A DNA stretch of 64,000 bases from Maricaulis alexandrii. GTDB taxonomy: Bacteria > Pseudomonadota > Alphaproteobacteria > Caulobacterales > Maricaulaceae. The stretch is taken from positions 262,001 to 326,000 of the forward strand of contig NZ_SWKP01000006.1 in the NCBI RefSeq assembly GCF_005871165.1, given 5' to 3'. Both the position numbers and the translations under genes were made by a program. This document shows, in pieces, positions 7,139-13,682 of the stretch. The notes beneath the pieces are model-generated. The model had not been told where the DNA came from. It searched no databases and saw only the letters and a list, made by a program, of their open reading frames with translations. The number at the start of each line of letters is the position of its first letter. The stretch's first letter is position 1.

Positions 7139-7762
7139 GTGACCTCTGCTGCGGTTTTCGTGATGGCCCTGCTGGCAACCACTTCACACGCTGTCGATGT
7201 GTGTGAAGCGCCCTGCACGCTGATCGAAATCGCAGATGACGGCAGCTATAGCGTGACCATGTTGGGGCAGGACAGCCGTTCAACACCCAGCATCAACGCC
7301 AATATTGTGGATGGACAGGTCTTCGACATAGACGGCGACGGTTCCGATGAGCGCGTCATCATCGATGATCGTGAATCGGCATTTGGCTCCGTAACCGCTG
7401 TGTTTGTTGATATCTCGACGGGCGAACCTTTCATTGCCTTTCAGTGCCAGGCCACGACCGTCGATGCTGTGCAGGAAGAATGCACCAGCTGGTACAACGG
7501 CTTGGAAGCGTCACAACTCGCTGACGCGCTGGACCGGGTACACGCATCCACTCGCGTCGAGGGCGCGTTGGATTGGGAAACGCAGTACCTCCTCATTCCC
7601 AATATCACCACTCAAAGCTCGATGATGCTGGCTATTCAAGCTGTTGAGCTTGCCCGAGCCCAACGCACAATCACAAACGGATCGACCGAAGCATTAGAAA
7701 TGCTTCGCGAGGCCTCTCTTTTCCGAGAGCAACGCGCTCTCCGCTTCACTTTTGCGGACTGA
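7139..7762 (+). CDS. Exported protein of unknown function inside the purine operon
   Basis: A 207-residue protein that I do not recognise. The first 18 residues form a signal peptide (hydrophobic [12 protein letters not shown], cleavage after SHA). Two cysteines follow (VCEAPC). Residues 63-71 read DIDGDGSDE, an acidic loop like the calcium loops of FG-GAP or dockerin-like repeats, although position 12 of an EF-hand is not acidic. The GTG start follows the purQ stop without a gap and has GGGGAG as its ribosome site, so it is co-transcribed with purQ; purL begins five bases after its stop. Its base use is less GC-rich than that of its neighbours, which suggests an insertion. Confidence 0.65.
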
Positions 7763-7766
7763 ACCC

Positions 7767-9998
7767 ATGACCCAATACGCCGAAGGCATCACCGCCGAGA
7801 TCGTCAAGGAACACGGCATCAATGACGAGGAATATGCTGTCATTCTCGAGCGTCTGGGGCGTGCCCCGAACATGGTCGAGCTGGGCATTTTCTCGGTCAT
7901 GTGGTCGGAGCATTGTTCCTACAAATCCTCGCGCGCGCATCTGGGCAAATTCCCGACCTCGGGCGAGAAGGTGATCCAGGGGCCGGGCGAGAATGCCGGT
8001 GTGATCGATATCGGTGATGGCCAGGCCTGTATCTTCAAGATGGAGAGCCATAACCACCCGTCTTACATCGAGCCCTATCAGGGTGCGGCGACGGGTGTGG
8101 GCGGTATCCTGCGCGACGTCTTCACCATGGGCGCGCGCCCGGTGGCGCTGATGAATGCGCTGCGCTTTGGGGCGCCGGACCATGCCAAGACCACGCACCT
8201 GGTCTCCGGCGTGGTGGCCGGGATCGGCGGATACGGCAATTGCGTCGGTGTGCCCACAGTGGGCGGCGAGACCAATTTCCACGCCGGCTATAATGGCAAT
8301 ATCCTGGTCAATGCGATGGCCGTCGGCCTCGCGGACACGGACAATATCTTCTATGCGCGCGGCGCCGAGCCGGGCCAGCCGATCGTCTATGTCGGCTCCA
8401 AGACCGGACGTGACGGCATCCATGGCGCGACCATGGCTTCGGCCGAGTTCGACGACCAGTCGGAAGAAAAGCGCCCGACCGTGCAGGTGGGTGACCCCTT
8501 CGTCGAGAAGAAGCTGATCGAAGCCTGTCTGGAACTGATGGCGACCGATGCAATCGCCGCCATCCAGGACATGGGCGCGGCCGGCCTGACCTCCTCCTCC
8601 GTGGAGATGGCGGACAAGGGCGGGATCGGCATCCATCTGGACATGGACAAGGTGCCCCAGCGCGAATCCCACATGACGGCCTATGAAATGATGCTCTCGG
8701 AAAGCCAGGAGCGCATGCTGGTCATCATGAAGCCGGGCCGCGAGGACGTCGCCTACGACATCTTCAAGAAATGGGAACTGGACGTCGCGGTGATCGGCGA
8801 GACCACGGACAGTGGCCGCATGGTGCTGACGCACAAGGGCGAGACCGTGTGCGACATCCCGGTCGCCCCGCTGGCCGATGATGCGCCGAAATATGAGCGC
8901 CCCTATTTCCCGCCGGAAGCGCGCGCCCAGCTCAATGCCAAGGACATCGCCAAGCCGGACCATATGGGCGACATCCTGCTGAAGCTGATGTCCAGCCCGG
9001 ACATGGCGTCGAAGGCCTGGATCTGGAAACAGTATGACCGCCACGTGATGGCCGATACGGCGGCCTCCTCGGAGGATCCGTCGGACGCCGCCATCGTGCG
9101 TGTGCACGGCACCAAGAAGGCCCTGGCCATCACCACGGACTGCACGCCGCGCTATTGCTTTGCCGACCCGTATGAAGGTGGCAAGCAGGCCGTGGCGGAA
9201 GCCTGGCGGAACCTCACCGCCACCGGCGCCGATCCGATCGCCATCACCGACTGCCTCAACTTCGGCAATCCGGAACGCGAAGAGATCATGGGCCAGTTCG
9301 TCGGCTGTATCGAAGGCATGGCGGAAGCCTGTGATGTGCTCTCCTTCCCGGTCGTGTCGGGCAATGTGAGCCTCTATAACGAGACCAATGGCGTCGCCAT
9401 TCCGCCGACCCCGGCCGTGGGCGGTGTCGGCCTGATCCCGGACATGGACCAGCGCGCCGGTTTCGGCGGCATGAAGGAGGGCAATATCCTCCTCGTGGTC
9501 GGTGAGACGAATGGTGCCATGGGCGCTTCGGTCTATCTCAAGGAGATCGAGGGTCGCGAAGATGGCGGCGCGCCGCTGGTCGACCTCAAGACGGAAAAGC
9601 TGCACGGCGATTTCGTCCGCGGCCAGATCCGCGCCGGCCGCCTGACAGCCTGTCACGACCTGTCCGATGGCGGTCTGGCCTGTGGTGCTGCCGACATGGC
9701 ACTGGCCTCCGATTGCGGCATCAAGCTGGCCCATGAACCGGAATCCACCGTGCCGATGCACGGTTTCCTGTTCGGCGAAGATCAGGCCCGCTACCTGCTC
9801 GCGGCGGAGAAGGAAGATGCCATCGCCATCCTGCAGGATGCCAAAGCGGAAGAGGTCCCGGTCCAGGTCGTCGGCCTCGCCGGCGGCACGGCGATCACCG
9901 TCAATGGCGCCCATCCGCTGGAACTGGACCGCCTGCGCGCGGCCTGGGAAGGCTGGATGCCCGGTCTGATGGACAAGCTGGTGGAAGCGGCCGAATAG
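7767..9998 (+). CDS. purL: FGAM synthase large subunit PurL (small form)
   Basis: A 743-residue ATP-dependent amidotransferase subunit that turns FGAR into FGAM. It is the short PurL that needs PurS and PurQ, both encoded just upstream. Typical motifs are [13 protein letters not shown], then [24 protein letters not shown], the duplicated AIRS-type domain with [13 protein letters not shown], and [15 protein letters not shown] near the end. The start at ATG (MTQYAEG) is preferred over an in-frame TTG 15 bases earlier, because the family N-terminus begins there. Confidence 0.97.
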
Positions 9999-10111: not shown

Positions 10112-11836
10112 GTGGCGAATATCGGATCATCGCAGGACGTGCCGAACCGGCGCACGGCCAAGGCCGCGCGCAACGACAACAGGCCTGTGACCGATCCGGC
10201 CCCGGTCGATGACGCTACTCTCGCCGCCTTCCTGGAGCAGATCCGGTCTGCGGACAGCTGGAGCGAGGCCGATGCCCGGCTGCGATCCTTCAAACCGCAA
10301 CTGGATACGCCGACCTTCATCCAGCTTCTGCGCCTCTGCACGGACCAGTTTCCCAAGGCGCACGGTCCGGCCTTCCGCCTCGCGCTTCTGCTCGCGGAAC
10401 AGGGCGAGGCCGATGCGGCGCGGACCGCCTATGACGATGCCTGCGCTCGCGGCCTGCCCCACACCCAGTCAGACCGCTTTTTCCTGGCGCTTCACTGGAC
10501 CCGCCGGGACTGGGAAAAGCTCGCCACGCTGACACCGGAGCTGCAGGCCTTTCCCGGGGCGCTTGAGGCAGCCCCCTGGCTGCGCGTGGCCTTCGCGCGA
10601 TTCATGTGTGGCGAGCTGAGCGGCGGCATCAAGGCGCTGCAGATCCATGCCGAGCTTCATCCCGGTCCGGCCGCACACATTCCGCTGATCACGCGCTGGC
10701 TGATCGAAGCCGAGGCCTGCCGCACCGCGCGCCATATGCTGGCTGCGCTGGAGTCGCTGACACCGGACCTGCCGGAGCTGACCGTGGCGGGTCACGCCCT
10801 GGACGTGTTCGCCCCCAACACACGCAGGGACCGGCCGATATCCGCCACGCCAGCCCCGGACACCACGCCGGTCGCGGAGGCAGATCCGGACAGGGCCGCA
10901 GCCCGGGACTGGGCGCTGAAACTCCTGCGTCCGGAGCGCAAGGCCCCCAAGCACGACCCGCTCGCTCCAGACGAGATGACCCAGCTGGAACAGGCCCTGT
11001 GGAGCGCTCTGAAAGGTGAATACGACACCGCCGCCGACGGGCTGACAGCCTTTCTCGACCGGCCCCGCCCGGAAACAGTGACCGGACGGGTCAGCGAGAC
11101 CCTCGACCTGATCCGTGCCCTCTCGCCCCTGCCCGCGCCCCGGCGCGCCCTGCTGCAGGATCAGCGCGGCGACTGCCTCGTCTCCGAACGCGACCCGTCC
11201 GGACGGGTCGCCCTCGTCTTTTCCAGCCTGGCCGACCGCGCAGCCGGCATGCCGGTGCGCTTTCTGGACGGTATCCTGGCCCGTCAGGGCTTCCAGATGA
11301 TCTTCCTGCGCGATTACAGCCGCTGCGCCTTCACTTGCGGGATCAAGTCACTGGGCGCGACGGCCGACGCAACAGTCGCCGCGCTTCGCGATCTGCTGGC
11401 ACAGGAAGAGGCCCGCCAGCTTGTCACGATCGGCATGTCCGGCGGCGGCTATGCCAGCCTTCGCTATGGGCTCGCCCTGGGCGCGGACGCCCTGTTCTCC
11501 TTTTCTGGCGGCACGGTTGCCCGACCGGCCGACATGCAAGCCCTCGGCGACCAACGGGTACCGGTCGTCGCGCGCCTGACCGAGCGCCGGGCCACCGAGG
11601 CCGACTTCACCCGCCCGGTGCGGGAGGTGCTGGCCGAACTGACCGGCGCGCCGCGTCTCAATTTGTATTTCAGCGAAGACAGCCGGGAGGACCGTGCTCA
11701 CGCCGAGGACCTGGCCGGTTTTGCCACCGTGTGCCTCAACCCGGTCTCAGACCATGGCCGCCATGATGTCTTCACCACCCTGCTGAGCCAGGGCTTCTCC
11801 TTCACCGCCCAGCTGGAACCGGAACCCGCGTCATGA
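10112..11836 (+). CDS. TPR-like protein with C-terminal alpha/beta-hydrolase-like domain
   Basis: A 574-residue cytosolic protein (no signal). Residues of about 45-240 are helical and look like degenerate tetratricopeptide repeats (for example FRLALLLAEQGEADAARTAYDDACARG). A Pro-rich linker follows. The C-terminal 220 residues carry a serine-hydrolase elbow GMSGGGYA with S443, and a late histidine (H551 in SDHGRHDV) that could complete a triad. The start is GTG after AAGGGGAGA. It overlaps the next gene, a radical SAM enzyme, by ATGA, so the two are made together. No family name is assigned; a tailoring or carrier-release function is a guess. Confidence 0.65.
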   Translation: MANIGSSQDVPNRRTAKAARNDNRPVTDPAPVDDATLAAFLEQIRSADSWSEADARLRSFKPQLDTPTFIQLLRLCTDQFPKAHGPAFRLALLLAEQGEADAARTAYDDACARGLPHTQSDRFFLALHWTRRDWEKLATLTPELQAFPGALEAAPWLRVAFARFMCGELSGGIKALQIHAELHPGPAAHIPLITRWLIEAEACRTARHMLAALESLTPDLPELTVAGHALDVFAPNTRRDRPISATPAPDTTPVAEADPDRAAARDWALKLLRPERKAPKHDPLAPDEMTQLEQALWSALKGEYDTAADGLTAFLDRPRPETVTGRVSETLDLIRALSPLPAPRRALLQDQRGDCLVSERDPSGRVALVFSSLADRAAGMPVRFLDGILARQGFQMIFLRDYSRCAFTCGIKSLGATADATVAALRDLLAQEEARQLVTIGMSGGGYASLRYGLALGADALFSFSGGTVARPADMQALGDQRVPVVARLTERRATEADFTRPVREVLAELTGAPRLNLYFSEDSREDRAHAEDLAGFATVCLNPVSDHGRHDVFTTLLSQGFSFTAQLEPEPAS

Positions 11837-12909
11837 CTGTCACCCTGTCCGTCCAGCCGGCCTCCCGGCAGCCCACCGATTATCGCCGCGACATGATCGG
11901 CCTGCTGCGCCTGGCCCGCAGCCTGCGCACGACCGGCTATGACATTTCCTCGACCTGCAATCTCAATTGCGAGGGCTGTTTCTATTTCTCCGGCGACCGC
12001 TCGAACATCCAGGAAGACCGGAGCGAGCTGGGTGATTGGGAGGCCTTCTTCCGGGGCCAGGCCGAGGACGGGATCAACTACGCCTATCTGGCCGGCGCGG
12101 AACCCTCCCTGGTGCCCGAGCGCCTGCGCCTGGCCACCCGCCATATCCCCTATGGCATGATCTTTTCGAACGGGACGCGGCGCATTCCCGAGGACATCCG
12201 CTATCGCATCCATATTTCCATGTGGGGGGCGGATGAGAGTTCCGGCCTGGCCCGCGGCGCCAATGTGAATGCCAAGGCCCTGCGCAATTATGCCGGGGAT
12301 GGCCGGGCGCTCTTCGTCTACACGATCCACCGCCGCAATATCGGCGAGATCGAGCAGGCGGTGCAGGCCTGCCACGAGGCCGGGGTCCGGATCACCTTCA
12401 ACTATTTCAGCGCGACCAGCGATTATCTGAAAAAGCTGCAGGAAGCGGCCTCCAATGATGACGCCTATTTCCGCTTCTCCAATGCCGATGACAATCTGAT
12501 GCTGGAGGCATCGGACTTCGCGGCAGCGCGCGCCGAGCTGATCCGGCTGATGCAGGCCTACCCGGACACGGTGCTCTATTCACTCGACTATGACCGCTGG
12601 GTCACCGGACCGACCAGCCCCTACACGCTGGATGCGGACGGGATTGCCGAGGATTGCTCCTTCCGCACCGATCCCTGGCACCGGCATTTCCAGATCGGCC
12701 GTGAGGCCAGTCCGGAAAAGTGCGGCAATCCGAATGTGGATTGCAGCCAGTGCCGCACCTATGCCGCCGGCATGACCTCCTGGACCCGCCATGTCGCTGC
12801 CCATGCCCCGGCGGAGAGCGCGAAAGCAGACTGGACGCAGGCTTTCCTGACCTGGAAGGAGATCTTCCTGGGTGACCAGGTTGACCATTTGGCCGTGGCG
12901 AAAACCTGA
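11833..12909 (+). CDS. Radical SAM protein with probable auxiliary Fe-S cluster
   Basis: A 358-residue protein. The radical SAM cluster motif is CNLNCEGC (C42, C46, C49; CX3CX2C). It is followed by the GAEPSL segment in the GGE position and a TIM-barrel-like core. Four more cysteines lie near the end (C275, C297, C304, C307), spaced like a SPASM/Twitch-type site for a second 4Fe-4S cluster. Such enzymes often modify peptides or proteins. No precursor peptide gene is evident beside it. It is co-translated with the hydrolase-like gene before it. Confidence 0.8.
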   Translation: MTVTLSVQPASRQPTDYRRDMIGLLRLARSLRTTGYDISSTCNLNCEGCFYFSGDRSNIQEDRSELGDWEAFFRGQAEDGINYAYLAGAEPSLVPERLRLATRHIPYGMIFSNGTRRIPEDIRYRIHISMWGADESSGLARGANVNAKALRNYAGDGRALFVYTIHRRNIGEIEQAVQACHEAGVRITFNYFSATSDYLKKLQEAASNDDAYFRFSNADDNLMLEASDFAAARAELIRLMQAYPDTVLYSLDYDRWVTGPTSPYTLDADGIAEDCSFRTDPWHRHFQIGREASPEKCGNPNVDCSQCRTYAAGMTSWTRHVAAHAPAESAKADWTQAFLTWKEIFLGDQVDHLAVAKT

Positions 12910-12931: not shown

Positions 12932-13153
12932 TCAGGCTGACGCGTCACCGTCCGGCAAGGAAAACACTTGTTCAACCGGGACGTTGAAGAAGCGGGCCAG
13001 CTTCAAGGCGATAATGGTGGACGGCACAAAACGGCCGACCTCGATCGTCGAGATCGTTTTGCGCGAAACTTCGATCGCTTCCGCCAGCTGCGACTGGCTG
13101 AGCTGATGTTCGGCCCGTAGAACGCGGATCCGGTTGTTCAGGGCAGCACTCAT
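12932..13153 (-). CDS. Xre-family helix-turn-helix regulator (short)
   Basis: A 73-residue DNA-binding protein consisting of one HTH_3 domain: NNRIRVLRAEHQLSQSQLAEAIEVSR, recognition helix RKTISTIEVGRFVPS, and the common end ALKLARFFNVPVEQVFSL. Its start overlaps the stop of the membrane-protein gene upstream (ATGA). This two-gene layout, a small four-helix membrane protein plus a YozG-like regulator, is widespread. It probably represses its own operon through the repeats at 13634-13682. Confidence 0.88.
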   Translation of the reverse strand: MSAALNNRIRVLRAEHQLSQSQLAEAIEVSRKTISTIEVGRFVPSTIIALKLARFFNVPVEQVFSLPDGDASA

Positions 13154-13620
13154 GCGGTGTCGCAGCCCTCTCCCATGTCTCGTCCAAGCAGGAAGAAACT
13201 GGCGGAAAACCCGATTAGAGCGAGGGCAATCAGCGCATCGAGCAGGACCTCGGGCGTGACATTGGCCAGCACAAGGCGGTCCATCGTCGTCAGGATGATC
13301 ATGCTCATCAGAACAAGGCCGAACGCCGCCAGGCCGGCGCGCTTCAGCACGGTGCCGAAGAAGCTGTCACTTTTCCAGGGACTGACCGTTGTCCCGCCAA
13401 ACCGGGTCTTGAGGAAGTAGAAGAGAGGCAGGAAGACGAGAAGGACAAGCACCCCACCCACCAGCTGCACAATATCCAGCCAGCTAGCCAAACCGCTGCT
13501 GGCGTAAGCTTCTGCAACCTTGAACGCATAGATCAGCGCCACCAGGCCGGTACCGCAAGCCGTAAGCAAAGCCAGACTGTCGCTCGCCTCGGCCCGTGAA
13601 CTCGGATTGAGAAAAGACAT
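13150..13620 (-). CDS. Four-helix membrane protein paired with Xre regulator (DUF2975-like)
   Basis: A 156-residue integral membrane protein with four predicted helices, near ALLTACGTGLVALIYAFKV, VQLVGGVLVLLVFLPLFYFL, AAFGLVLMSMIILTTM and LLDALIALALIGFSASFFLL. The layout and its fused HTH partner fit the DUF2975 group, whose function is not established; the assignment is by pattern and neighbourhood. I prefer the ATG at MSFLNPSS over an upstream in-frame start, because the earlier one lies inside the operator repeats. Confidence 0.7.
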   Translation of the reverse strand: MSFLNPSSRAEASDSLALLTACGTGLVALIYAFKVAEAYASSGLASWLDIVQLVGGVLVLLVFLPLFYFLKTRFGGTTVSPWKSDSFFGTVLKRAGLAAFGLVLMSMIILTTMDRLVLANVTPEVLLDALIALALIGFSASFFLLGRDMGEGCDTA

Positions 13621-13633
13621 GTTGAACCCCTTG

Positions 13634-13682
13634 GGTGTCAATTTGATACCCAAGGGTTACATTTGATACCTCAAGGTGTCAA
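13634..13682. promoter_or_regulatory. Repeated operator upstream of the membrane protein/Xre operon
   Basis: Four half-sites: GGTGTCAA at 13634 and 13675, and TTGATACC at 13643 and 13663. They form two inverted pairs (spacers of 1 and 4 bases). The ten-mer ATTTGATACC is repeated exactly 20 bases apart. On the minus strand a TTGACA -35-like hexamer lies within the array. This fits binding of Xre dimers and autoregulation (inference). Confidence 0.65.

Follow-up and report, generated by a model that had tools for sequence, protein, structure and literature searches.

Which chemistry might join a hydrolase-like protein built on helical repeats to a radical SAM enzyme, when the two genes share their stop and start codons? 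The question is raised by two genes of Maricaulis alexandrii, here called gene A and gene B, which lie in a 64,000-nucleotide stretch of contig NZ_SWKP01000006.1 (positions 262,001–326,000 of the forward strand; hereafter the window). An earlier note on this DNA had proposed that they form an undescribed two-gene system, in which the repeats of the first protein could hold a peptide or protein for the second to modify. We followed both families through related genomes, aligned their members and surveyed the genes beside them.

Locus layout and distribution

The two reading frames overlap by ATGA, with the exact coordinates that the earlier note had given (Table 1). Gene A starts with GTG, preceded by a AAAGGGGAG stretch, and the two genes have the same GC3 (0.81), a coding-type composition. 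The pair is flanked by purL and by an M28 peptidase–YHS–bolA–grxD stretch (gene names assigned by eye). The same purL site carries the pair in another genome of the genus (G183), and no match to the pair was found there in the 7 other genus genomes checked; in two of these 7 pair-less genomes, just ~80–100 bases separate the purL match from the peptidase match. Genes for a small helix-turn-helix (HTH) regulator and a membrane-type protein, facing the pair, accompany it in both pair-bearing genomes of the genus (tblastn, E up to 1e-8). They were absent by tblastn from the purL–bolA site of the 7 pair-less genomes of the genus that were checked, and inspection by eye of the reading frames around the other pairs described below showed neither. 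The regulator and the membrane-type protein are probably passengers of the pair.

Table 1. Features of the gene A–gene B locus, in window coordinates.
Feature	Position	Strand	Basis
Gene A, helical-repeat (TPR-like) protein with C-terminal alpha/beta-hydrolase-like domain, 574 aa	10112..11836	+	ORF, homologues, triad alignment, low-confidence model, VIA-align matches
Gene B, radical SAM protein, 358 aa	11833..12909	+	ORF, Pfam PF04055 (E 3.5e-4), profile match to SkfB
ATGA overlap, gene A stop and gene B start	11833..11836	+	identical overlap in L034 and L140
Nucleophile elbow G441-M-S443-G-G-G446 (GMSGGG) of gene A	11432..11449	+	S443 in 18/18 rows
D527 codon, candidate catalytic acid of gene A	11690..11692	+	identical in 18/18 rows
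H551 codon, candidate catalytic histidine of gene A	11762..11764	+	identical in 18/18 rows
CX3CX2C (C42, C46, C49) of gene B, presumed SAM-binding cluster ligands	11956..11979	+	Cys in 40/40 rows
C275, C297, C304 and C307 of gene B, presumed auxiliary iron-sulphur cluster ligands	12655..12753	+	conserved in 27–40 of 40 rows
Small HTH regulator (12932–13153) and membrane-type protein (13150–13653), facing the pair	12932..13653	-	tblastn, E up to 1e-8, purL–bolA site

Few genomes carry the radical SAM gene, and its distribution is patchy. It was found in 2 of 19 genus members, in 5 of 200 genomes of the order (one a partial match), in 7 of 385 genomes of the class at E 1e-30 (3 at full length) and, at E 1e-60, in 3 of 248 genomes of the family to which G221 belongs. 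Gene A or its domain was about as scarce (7/200 at E 0.001; 9/385 at E 1e-10). The source genome itself gave one match to the radical SAM family (E up to 0.001). Seventeen plasmid records match gene B, only that of Methylomagnum with 80% coverage and the others partially.

Recurrence of the pair

Members of the two families adjoin in seven loci, so that the neighbourhood check that the earlier note had proposed came out in favour of a pairing. Besides the window, these are L013 (the G183 locus), L034 in a Paracoccus MAG, L037 in Cohaesibacter marisflavi (where the order of the pair is reversed), L140 in G221, L167 in G850 and L168 in G795. The ATGA overlap is common to three of the pairs (window, L034 and L140). 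In G221's family, all three genomes found with the radical SAM gene carry the pair. The hydrolase of the G850 pair is divergent, and a stop codon breaks the radical SAM gene of the G795 pair. For the G795 genes, the best matches come from an eighth genome with both genes, that of L050 (74% over 174 aa for the radical SAM piece; 42% over 519 aa for the hydrolase), where the two share a contig but are unlinked and distant from each other. For the radical SAM protein of L050 itself, the score is slightly higher against the full-length protein of L038 than against that of G795.

Linked members do not form a single clade in either tree. On the radical SAM tree (42 rows), the hydrolase-linked members, counted for the five pairs then known, require 3 label changes. 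The seven linked members on the hydrolase tree (18 rows) require 6, of which well-supported branches impose at least 3, and cluster there no better than shuffled labels. The pairing thus arose more than once or was repeatedly lost, a pattern suggestive of a functional tie between the two genes rather than one inherited accident.

Gene A: helical repeats and a hydrolase-like domain

The earlier note had seen the GMSGGG elbow, its serine S443 and a possible histidine H551 in the C-terminal part of gene A, and had left the acid unnamed. Alignment of the family bears out both residues and supplies D527 as the acid: all three were invariant in 9/9 rows and then in 18/18 rows of a wider alignment (both counts include the window protein, and the 18-row set omits the weakest matches, such as those in L019, L020 and L021 and several from the search of the class). 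The triad whose loss would have spoken against a hydrolase is thus conserved. In the alpha/beta-hydrolase fold, the nucleophile follows strand 5, the acid strand 7 and the histidine strand 8. S443, D527 and H551 follow this order of nucleophile, acid and histidine in all 18 rows; in an AlphaFold model of low confidence (mean pLDDT 50.4), a strand ends at the nucleophile and a helix comes after it.

The same low-confidence model is helical over approximately residues 34–337. The helical repeats that had been read before the hydrolase domain find support in homologues, with significant TPR matches in L034 (E 8.7e-7) and L037 (E 8.9e-18); the window protein itself reaches an E of only 0.11 with the Pfam TPR models, which is not significant. 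No Pfam family reached its cut-off for the window protein, its hydrolase domain, searched alone, matched none at E values up to 1, and NCBIfam gave no match for gene A. Across nine members of the family, the best Pfam match of the hydrolase was Hydrolase_4 (1.8e-4, in 3/9 members), Asp2 gave 0.094 at most (1/9 members), and none of the nine had a strong Pfam match to any characterised transferase family. In its Ser–Asp–His order, its strand–nucleophile–helix arrangement (in the low-confidence model) and its fold matches, gene A resembles feruloyl esterases, antigen 85 and Asp2, from which it differs by the long helical-repeat N-terminus. Antigen 85C, a transferase of the alpha/beta-hydrolase fold, is among the VIA-align matches of gene A, so the fold does not decide between esterase and transferase. 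Two further comparisons with the hydrolase profile found no similarity: one to a two-sequence alignment of annotated Burkholderia hydrolases (probability 0.27%, from a thin profile) and one to the TPR+LpxL-like proteins that accompany some relatives of gene B.

Gene B: a radical SAM core with four further cysteines

Conservation was read from an alignment (A6) of the window protein and members from 39 of the 80 named loci in which the radical SAM family was found. The superfamily motif CX3CX2C lies in a conserved core in all 40 rows, and C42, C46, C49, C297, C304 and C307 are cysteine throughout. C275 is cysteine in 27 rows and falls in a gap in the other 13, which are exactly the rows from tandem-type loci, those in which a second radical SAM gene comes next. 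After the core, cysteine occurs in at least 15 of the 40 rows only at the columns of C275, C297, C304 and C307 and at one column beside C297, where window gene B has glycine. The core motif and four auxiliary-type cysteines noted from the window sequence recur in the aligned members, C275 excepted in the tandem-type rows.

SPASM domains have seven C-terminal cysteines that bind two clusters; Twitch-type domains, with a shortened SPASM fold, have four and bind one. Gene B has four auxiliary cysteines, spaced C-x21-C-x6-C-x2-C, and not the SPASM pattern of seven, and it probably holds one extra Fe–S cluster. It shares the core and the cysteine-rich C-terminus with the SPASM/Twitch enzymes SkfB, PqqE and ScmE, yet its scores lie far below the NCBIfam cut-offs (24.5 bits against 400 for the SynChlorMet ScmE model). 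Neither gene B nor five relatives approached any NCBIfam cut-off, with scores of roughly a tenth or less, and the match to Pfam Radical_SAM also stays below the cut-off (21.2 against 29.5 bits). The A6 profile found SkfB as the best PDB relative (2.8e-13) and also matched cytosylglucuronate decarboxylase weakly (0.0055). Neither gene A nor gene B falls in a catalogued family, and our literature search found no described pathway for the pair, in agreement with the earlier note's view of it as undescribed.

Partners of related radical SAM genes

Of the 80 family loci, 52 are tandem-type and 28 are not. We surveyed the partners of the 28 non-tandem loci, together with six from other searches, within a radius of 8 kb (n = 34). 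An MBOAT gene was present in 11 loci, a TPR+LpxL-like gene in 10 and the hydrolase in 5; exactly one of the three types occurred in 26/34 loci, two together in none, and none of the three in 8. Profiles of the three types matched in 0/52 tandem-type loci, a control drawn mostly from other phyla (by record titles). As the MBOAT, LpxL-like and P450 profiles were built from the same loci, their calls locate these genes and are not an independent test, and the independent MBOAT cases are fewer than 11, four of the loci being Janthinobacterium relatives. MBOAT genes are otherwise rare, with 17 matches in 22 whole genomes. Pfam recognised single representatives of MBOAT (2e-27) and of P450 (7.6e-40). 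The LpxL-like identity rests on one match to Lip_A_acyltrans (PF03279, 3e-5 in L044) and on homology within the group; three of four LpxL-like C-termini tested had no match to this model.

The substitution reaches close relatives. L029, the tree sister of window gene B (97/95), has a TPR+LpxL-like gene in place of the hydrolase, with a sulfotransferase and an Asp/Arg-hydroxylase-like gene nearby. P450 genes occur in 13/34 loci, 6 with MBOAT and 7 with LpxL-like partners, and the P450 profile matched in 0/5 hydrolase-type loci. Carbamoyltransferases occur in 4/34 loci (Pfam on three), and a methyltransferase lies near the gene B relative of L054. SGNH/AlgX-like genes stand in 5 of the 11 MBOAT loci, with weak Pfam support (ALGX 4.9e-4 in L015, under the cut-off; none in L141). 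These loci resemble MBOAT–SGNH (AlgX-like) cassettes; the window carries the hydrolase instead of MBOAT. We know of no radical SAM gene in the established alginate or teichoic-acid acylation cassettes, and a literature search found no paper that combines radical SAM and MBOAT. An acyltransferase might equally decorate a molecule whose other half a gene B-type enzyme alters.

More distant relatives lie among fatty-acid-type genes. Ketosynthase-like genes occur within 5 kb of nearly all tandem loci (the 50-locus cluster includes the non-tandem L046), further fatty-acid-type genes were seen by eye in three tandem-type loci, and L093, also tandem-type, has a B12-binding radical SAM gene (Pfam). 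In L022, a distant gene B relative lies between ACP, TauD and NRPS genes. By eye, the immediate neighbours of the window pair and of the other hydrolase-type pairs include no recognisable ACP, ligase, P450 or fatty-acid gene.

The tandem loci recall the FASII clusters of Kuenenia stuttgartiensis and Desulfotalea psychrophila, which are proposed to make ladderanes or polyunsaturated hydrocarbons (PUHC) and which hold radical SAM, phytoene-dehydrogenase-like, polysaccharide-deacetylase and B12-radical SAM genes (PMC2649909). Tandem loci of our wider radical SAM family (31–36% identity) come from Thermodesulfobacteriota, Spirochaetota and Myxococcota. Their likeness to the published clusters, which encode the named proteins Kuste3342/3343 and DP1853/1855, is judged by gene content: by eye, they hold genes resembling those for ketosynthases, thioesterases and polysaccharide deacetylases and, as noted for L093, a B12-binding radical SAM gene. 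Tandem-type members are gapped at C275, whereas window gene B has C275, is a single gene and has no FASII neighbours; the set that would mark a ladderane/PUHC-type cluster, in which radical SAM genes in tandem accompany ketosynthase, ACP and related FASII genes, is not present beside the pair.

The hydrolase family was also found without a radical SAM neighbour, in 11 loci. Four of these have acyl-type neighbours: ACP, fatty acyl-AMP ligase, phytanoyl dioxygenases, P450 and pyruvyl transferases in L026; ACP in L027; AMP-binding+PP-binding, PhyH and pyruvyl transferase genes in L145; and AMP-binding, PhyH and P450 genes in L146. No acyl-type neighbour was recognised by eye or annotation in the other seven (L017, L018, L025, L142, L143, L144 and L147); in L025 the hydrolase lies amid polysaccharide genes. 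Surveyed apart from each other, both families thus keep company with genes that activate or transfer acyl groups, although for the hydrolase this holds in only four of the 11 loci seen.

Proposed function and alternatives

The recurrence of the pair and the place of gene B relatives beside acyltransferase-type enzymes suggest that the pair probably serves to make or attach an unusual acyl group. We give close to an even chance to a minimal acyl-tailoring unit, in which gene B would modify an acyl-containing intermediate by radical chemistry and gene A would transfer or release the acyl group through Ser443. Gene B would act on a carrier- or CoA-bound acyl chain, or on its acceptor, a small molecule or lipid; the helical repeats of gene A would bind its partner or the acyl carrier; the acyl group would be loaded on Ser443 of the putative Ser443–Asp527–His551 triad; and gene A would then pass it to an acceptor or release it. 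We infer that the substrate of gene B is an acyl intermediate and that gene A is a transferase, not an esterase or thioesterase; the assignment of one half of the molecule to gene B, and a contact between the two proteins, are likewise suggested rather than observed. A wider reading, which we regard as doubtful, would make the gene B family a widespread group of acyl-chain radical SAM enzymes, the ladderane/PUHC branch included, whose terminal acyl-transfer enzyme was swapped repeatedly among three unrelated families; gene B would then remodel a carrier-bound or esterified chain by forming a C–C bond, a desaturation or a ring.

The main alternative to the acyl-tailoring unit is that gene B alters the acceptor, a small metabolite of sugar, polyol or amino type, and that the hydrolase, MBOAT or LpxL-like protein merely adds an ordinary acyl group. 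Enzymes of the carbamoyltransferase, sulfotransferase, methyltransferase and Asp/Arg-hydroxylase-like types usually decorate small molecules or sugars, and their genes in the related loci described above favour this reading, as does the weak match to cytosylglucuronate decarboxylase. Distant gene B relatives in FASII-like clusters, one of them beside an ACP, point instead to the acyl side, and we consider modification of the acceptor rather unlikely. Gene A could also act simply as an esterase or thioesterase, editing a product or setting it free without transfer. This too seems unlikely, since it occupies the slot that acyltransferase-type enzymes hold in related loci; the fold, which antigen 85C shares, does not decide the matter.

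The peptide reading of the earlier note fares less well. In a RiPP pathway, the repeats would hold a small peptide for gene B to modify and for the hydrolase to trim; SkfB, the nearest solved relative of the profile, is the maturase of sporulation killing factor, and gene B has weak NCBIfam similarity to peptide maturases. However, the free space around the window pair and L013 showed no small ORF, by eye, that the two have in common. The C-terminal cysteines number four and not seven, the genes overlap in three pairs, and the hydrolase slot is filled by acyltransferase-type genes in related loci; we consider peptide modification highly improbable. A viperin-like antiviral pair would suit the patchy presence in the genus, and gene B does give weak matches to viperin models (18.5 bits with NCBIfam; pVip E 2.1e-5). 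That score is far under the 180-bit cut-off, however, several gene B relatives sit in biosynthetic-type clusters, and phage records held no gene B relative, nor was any confirmed in IMG/VR (a single-sequence query that reaches close relatives only); we hold this to be the least credible of the readings, with hardly any weight. A defence role, considered also through PADLOC, was rejected on scores that were too low, as with viperin.

Significance of the proposed acyl-tailoring pair

A radical enzyme with an exchangeable acyl-type partner would tie a large, uncatalogued radical SAM family to the tailoring of lipids or acyl groups, would make relatives of the genes in ladderane-type clusters, which are still unexplained, accessible to study, and would illustrate how the partner of one enzyme can be replaced by other families in the same slot. 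If the acyl-chain reading of the whole family is true, the window pair would be the smallest model system for such chemistry.

Gene neighbourhoods of the pair and its relatives

At the purL site, genes for an HTH regulator and a membrane-type protein accompany the pair within the genus, and in the window a 207-residue ORF lies between purQ and purL, reaching the purL start. Relatives of both the regulator and the membrane-type protein were also found in genome G160 (L017, 4407–5089), approximately 2 kb from a hydrolase homologue (7188–8927). In L168, the radical SAM gene of the pair is split, reflecting either recent decay or an assembly error, and the adjoining hydrolase ORF stays open. The long hydrolase-domain ORF of L145 has as neighbours a pyruvyl transferase gene and one for an AMP-binding/PP-binding protein.

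Features of the window and of homologous loci.
Feature	Location	Coordinates	Strand
ORF of 207 residues, signal-like start	Window	7139–7762	+
Two genes facing the pair: HTH regulator, membrane-type protein	Window	12932–13653	-
ORF of 1,322 residues with internal hydrolase domain	L145	5363–9331	
Radical SAM gene interrupted by in-frame stop	L168	6250–7345	-
Plasmid-borne radical SAM genes of a more distant group	L023	8150–10505	
Same group	L024	8207–10604	
Resembles this group by eye	L028	3283–8625	

Radical SAM relatives in other clusters

Tandem radical SAM genes occur within fatty-acid-type clusters (L055–L108, except L072 and L105) of Thermodesulfobacteriota, Myxococcota and Spirochaetota. 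In the alignment, the column of the fourth auxiliary cysteine (C275, a presumed Fe–S ligand) is a gap in all 13 tandem-type members. On the plasmids, the radical SAM genes of L023 and L024 are flanked by an annotated phenylacetic acid catabolic protein gene and a MaoC or PaaI gene, an arrangement that L028, which carries no annotation, resembles by eye. Four further radical SAM loci (L040, L041, L048 and L141) contain carbamoyltransferase genes close to P450 and acyltransferase-type genes, and look like a larger uncharacterised tailoring cluster.
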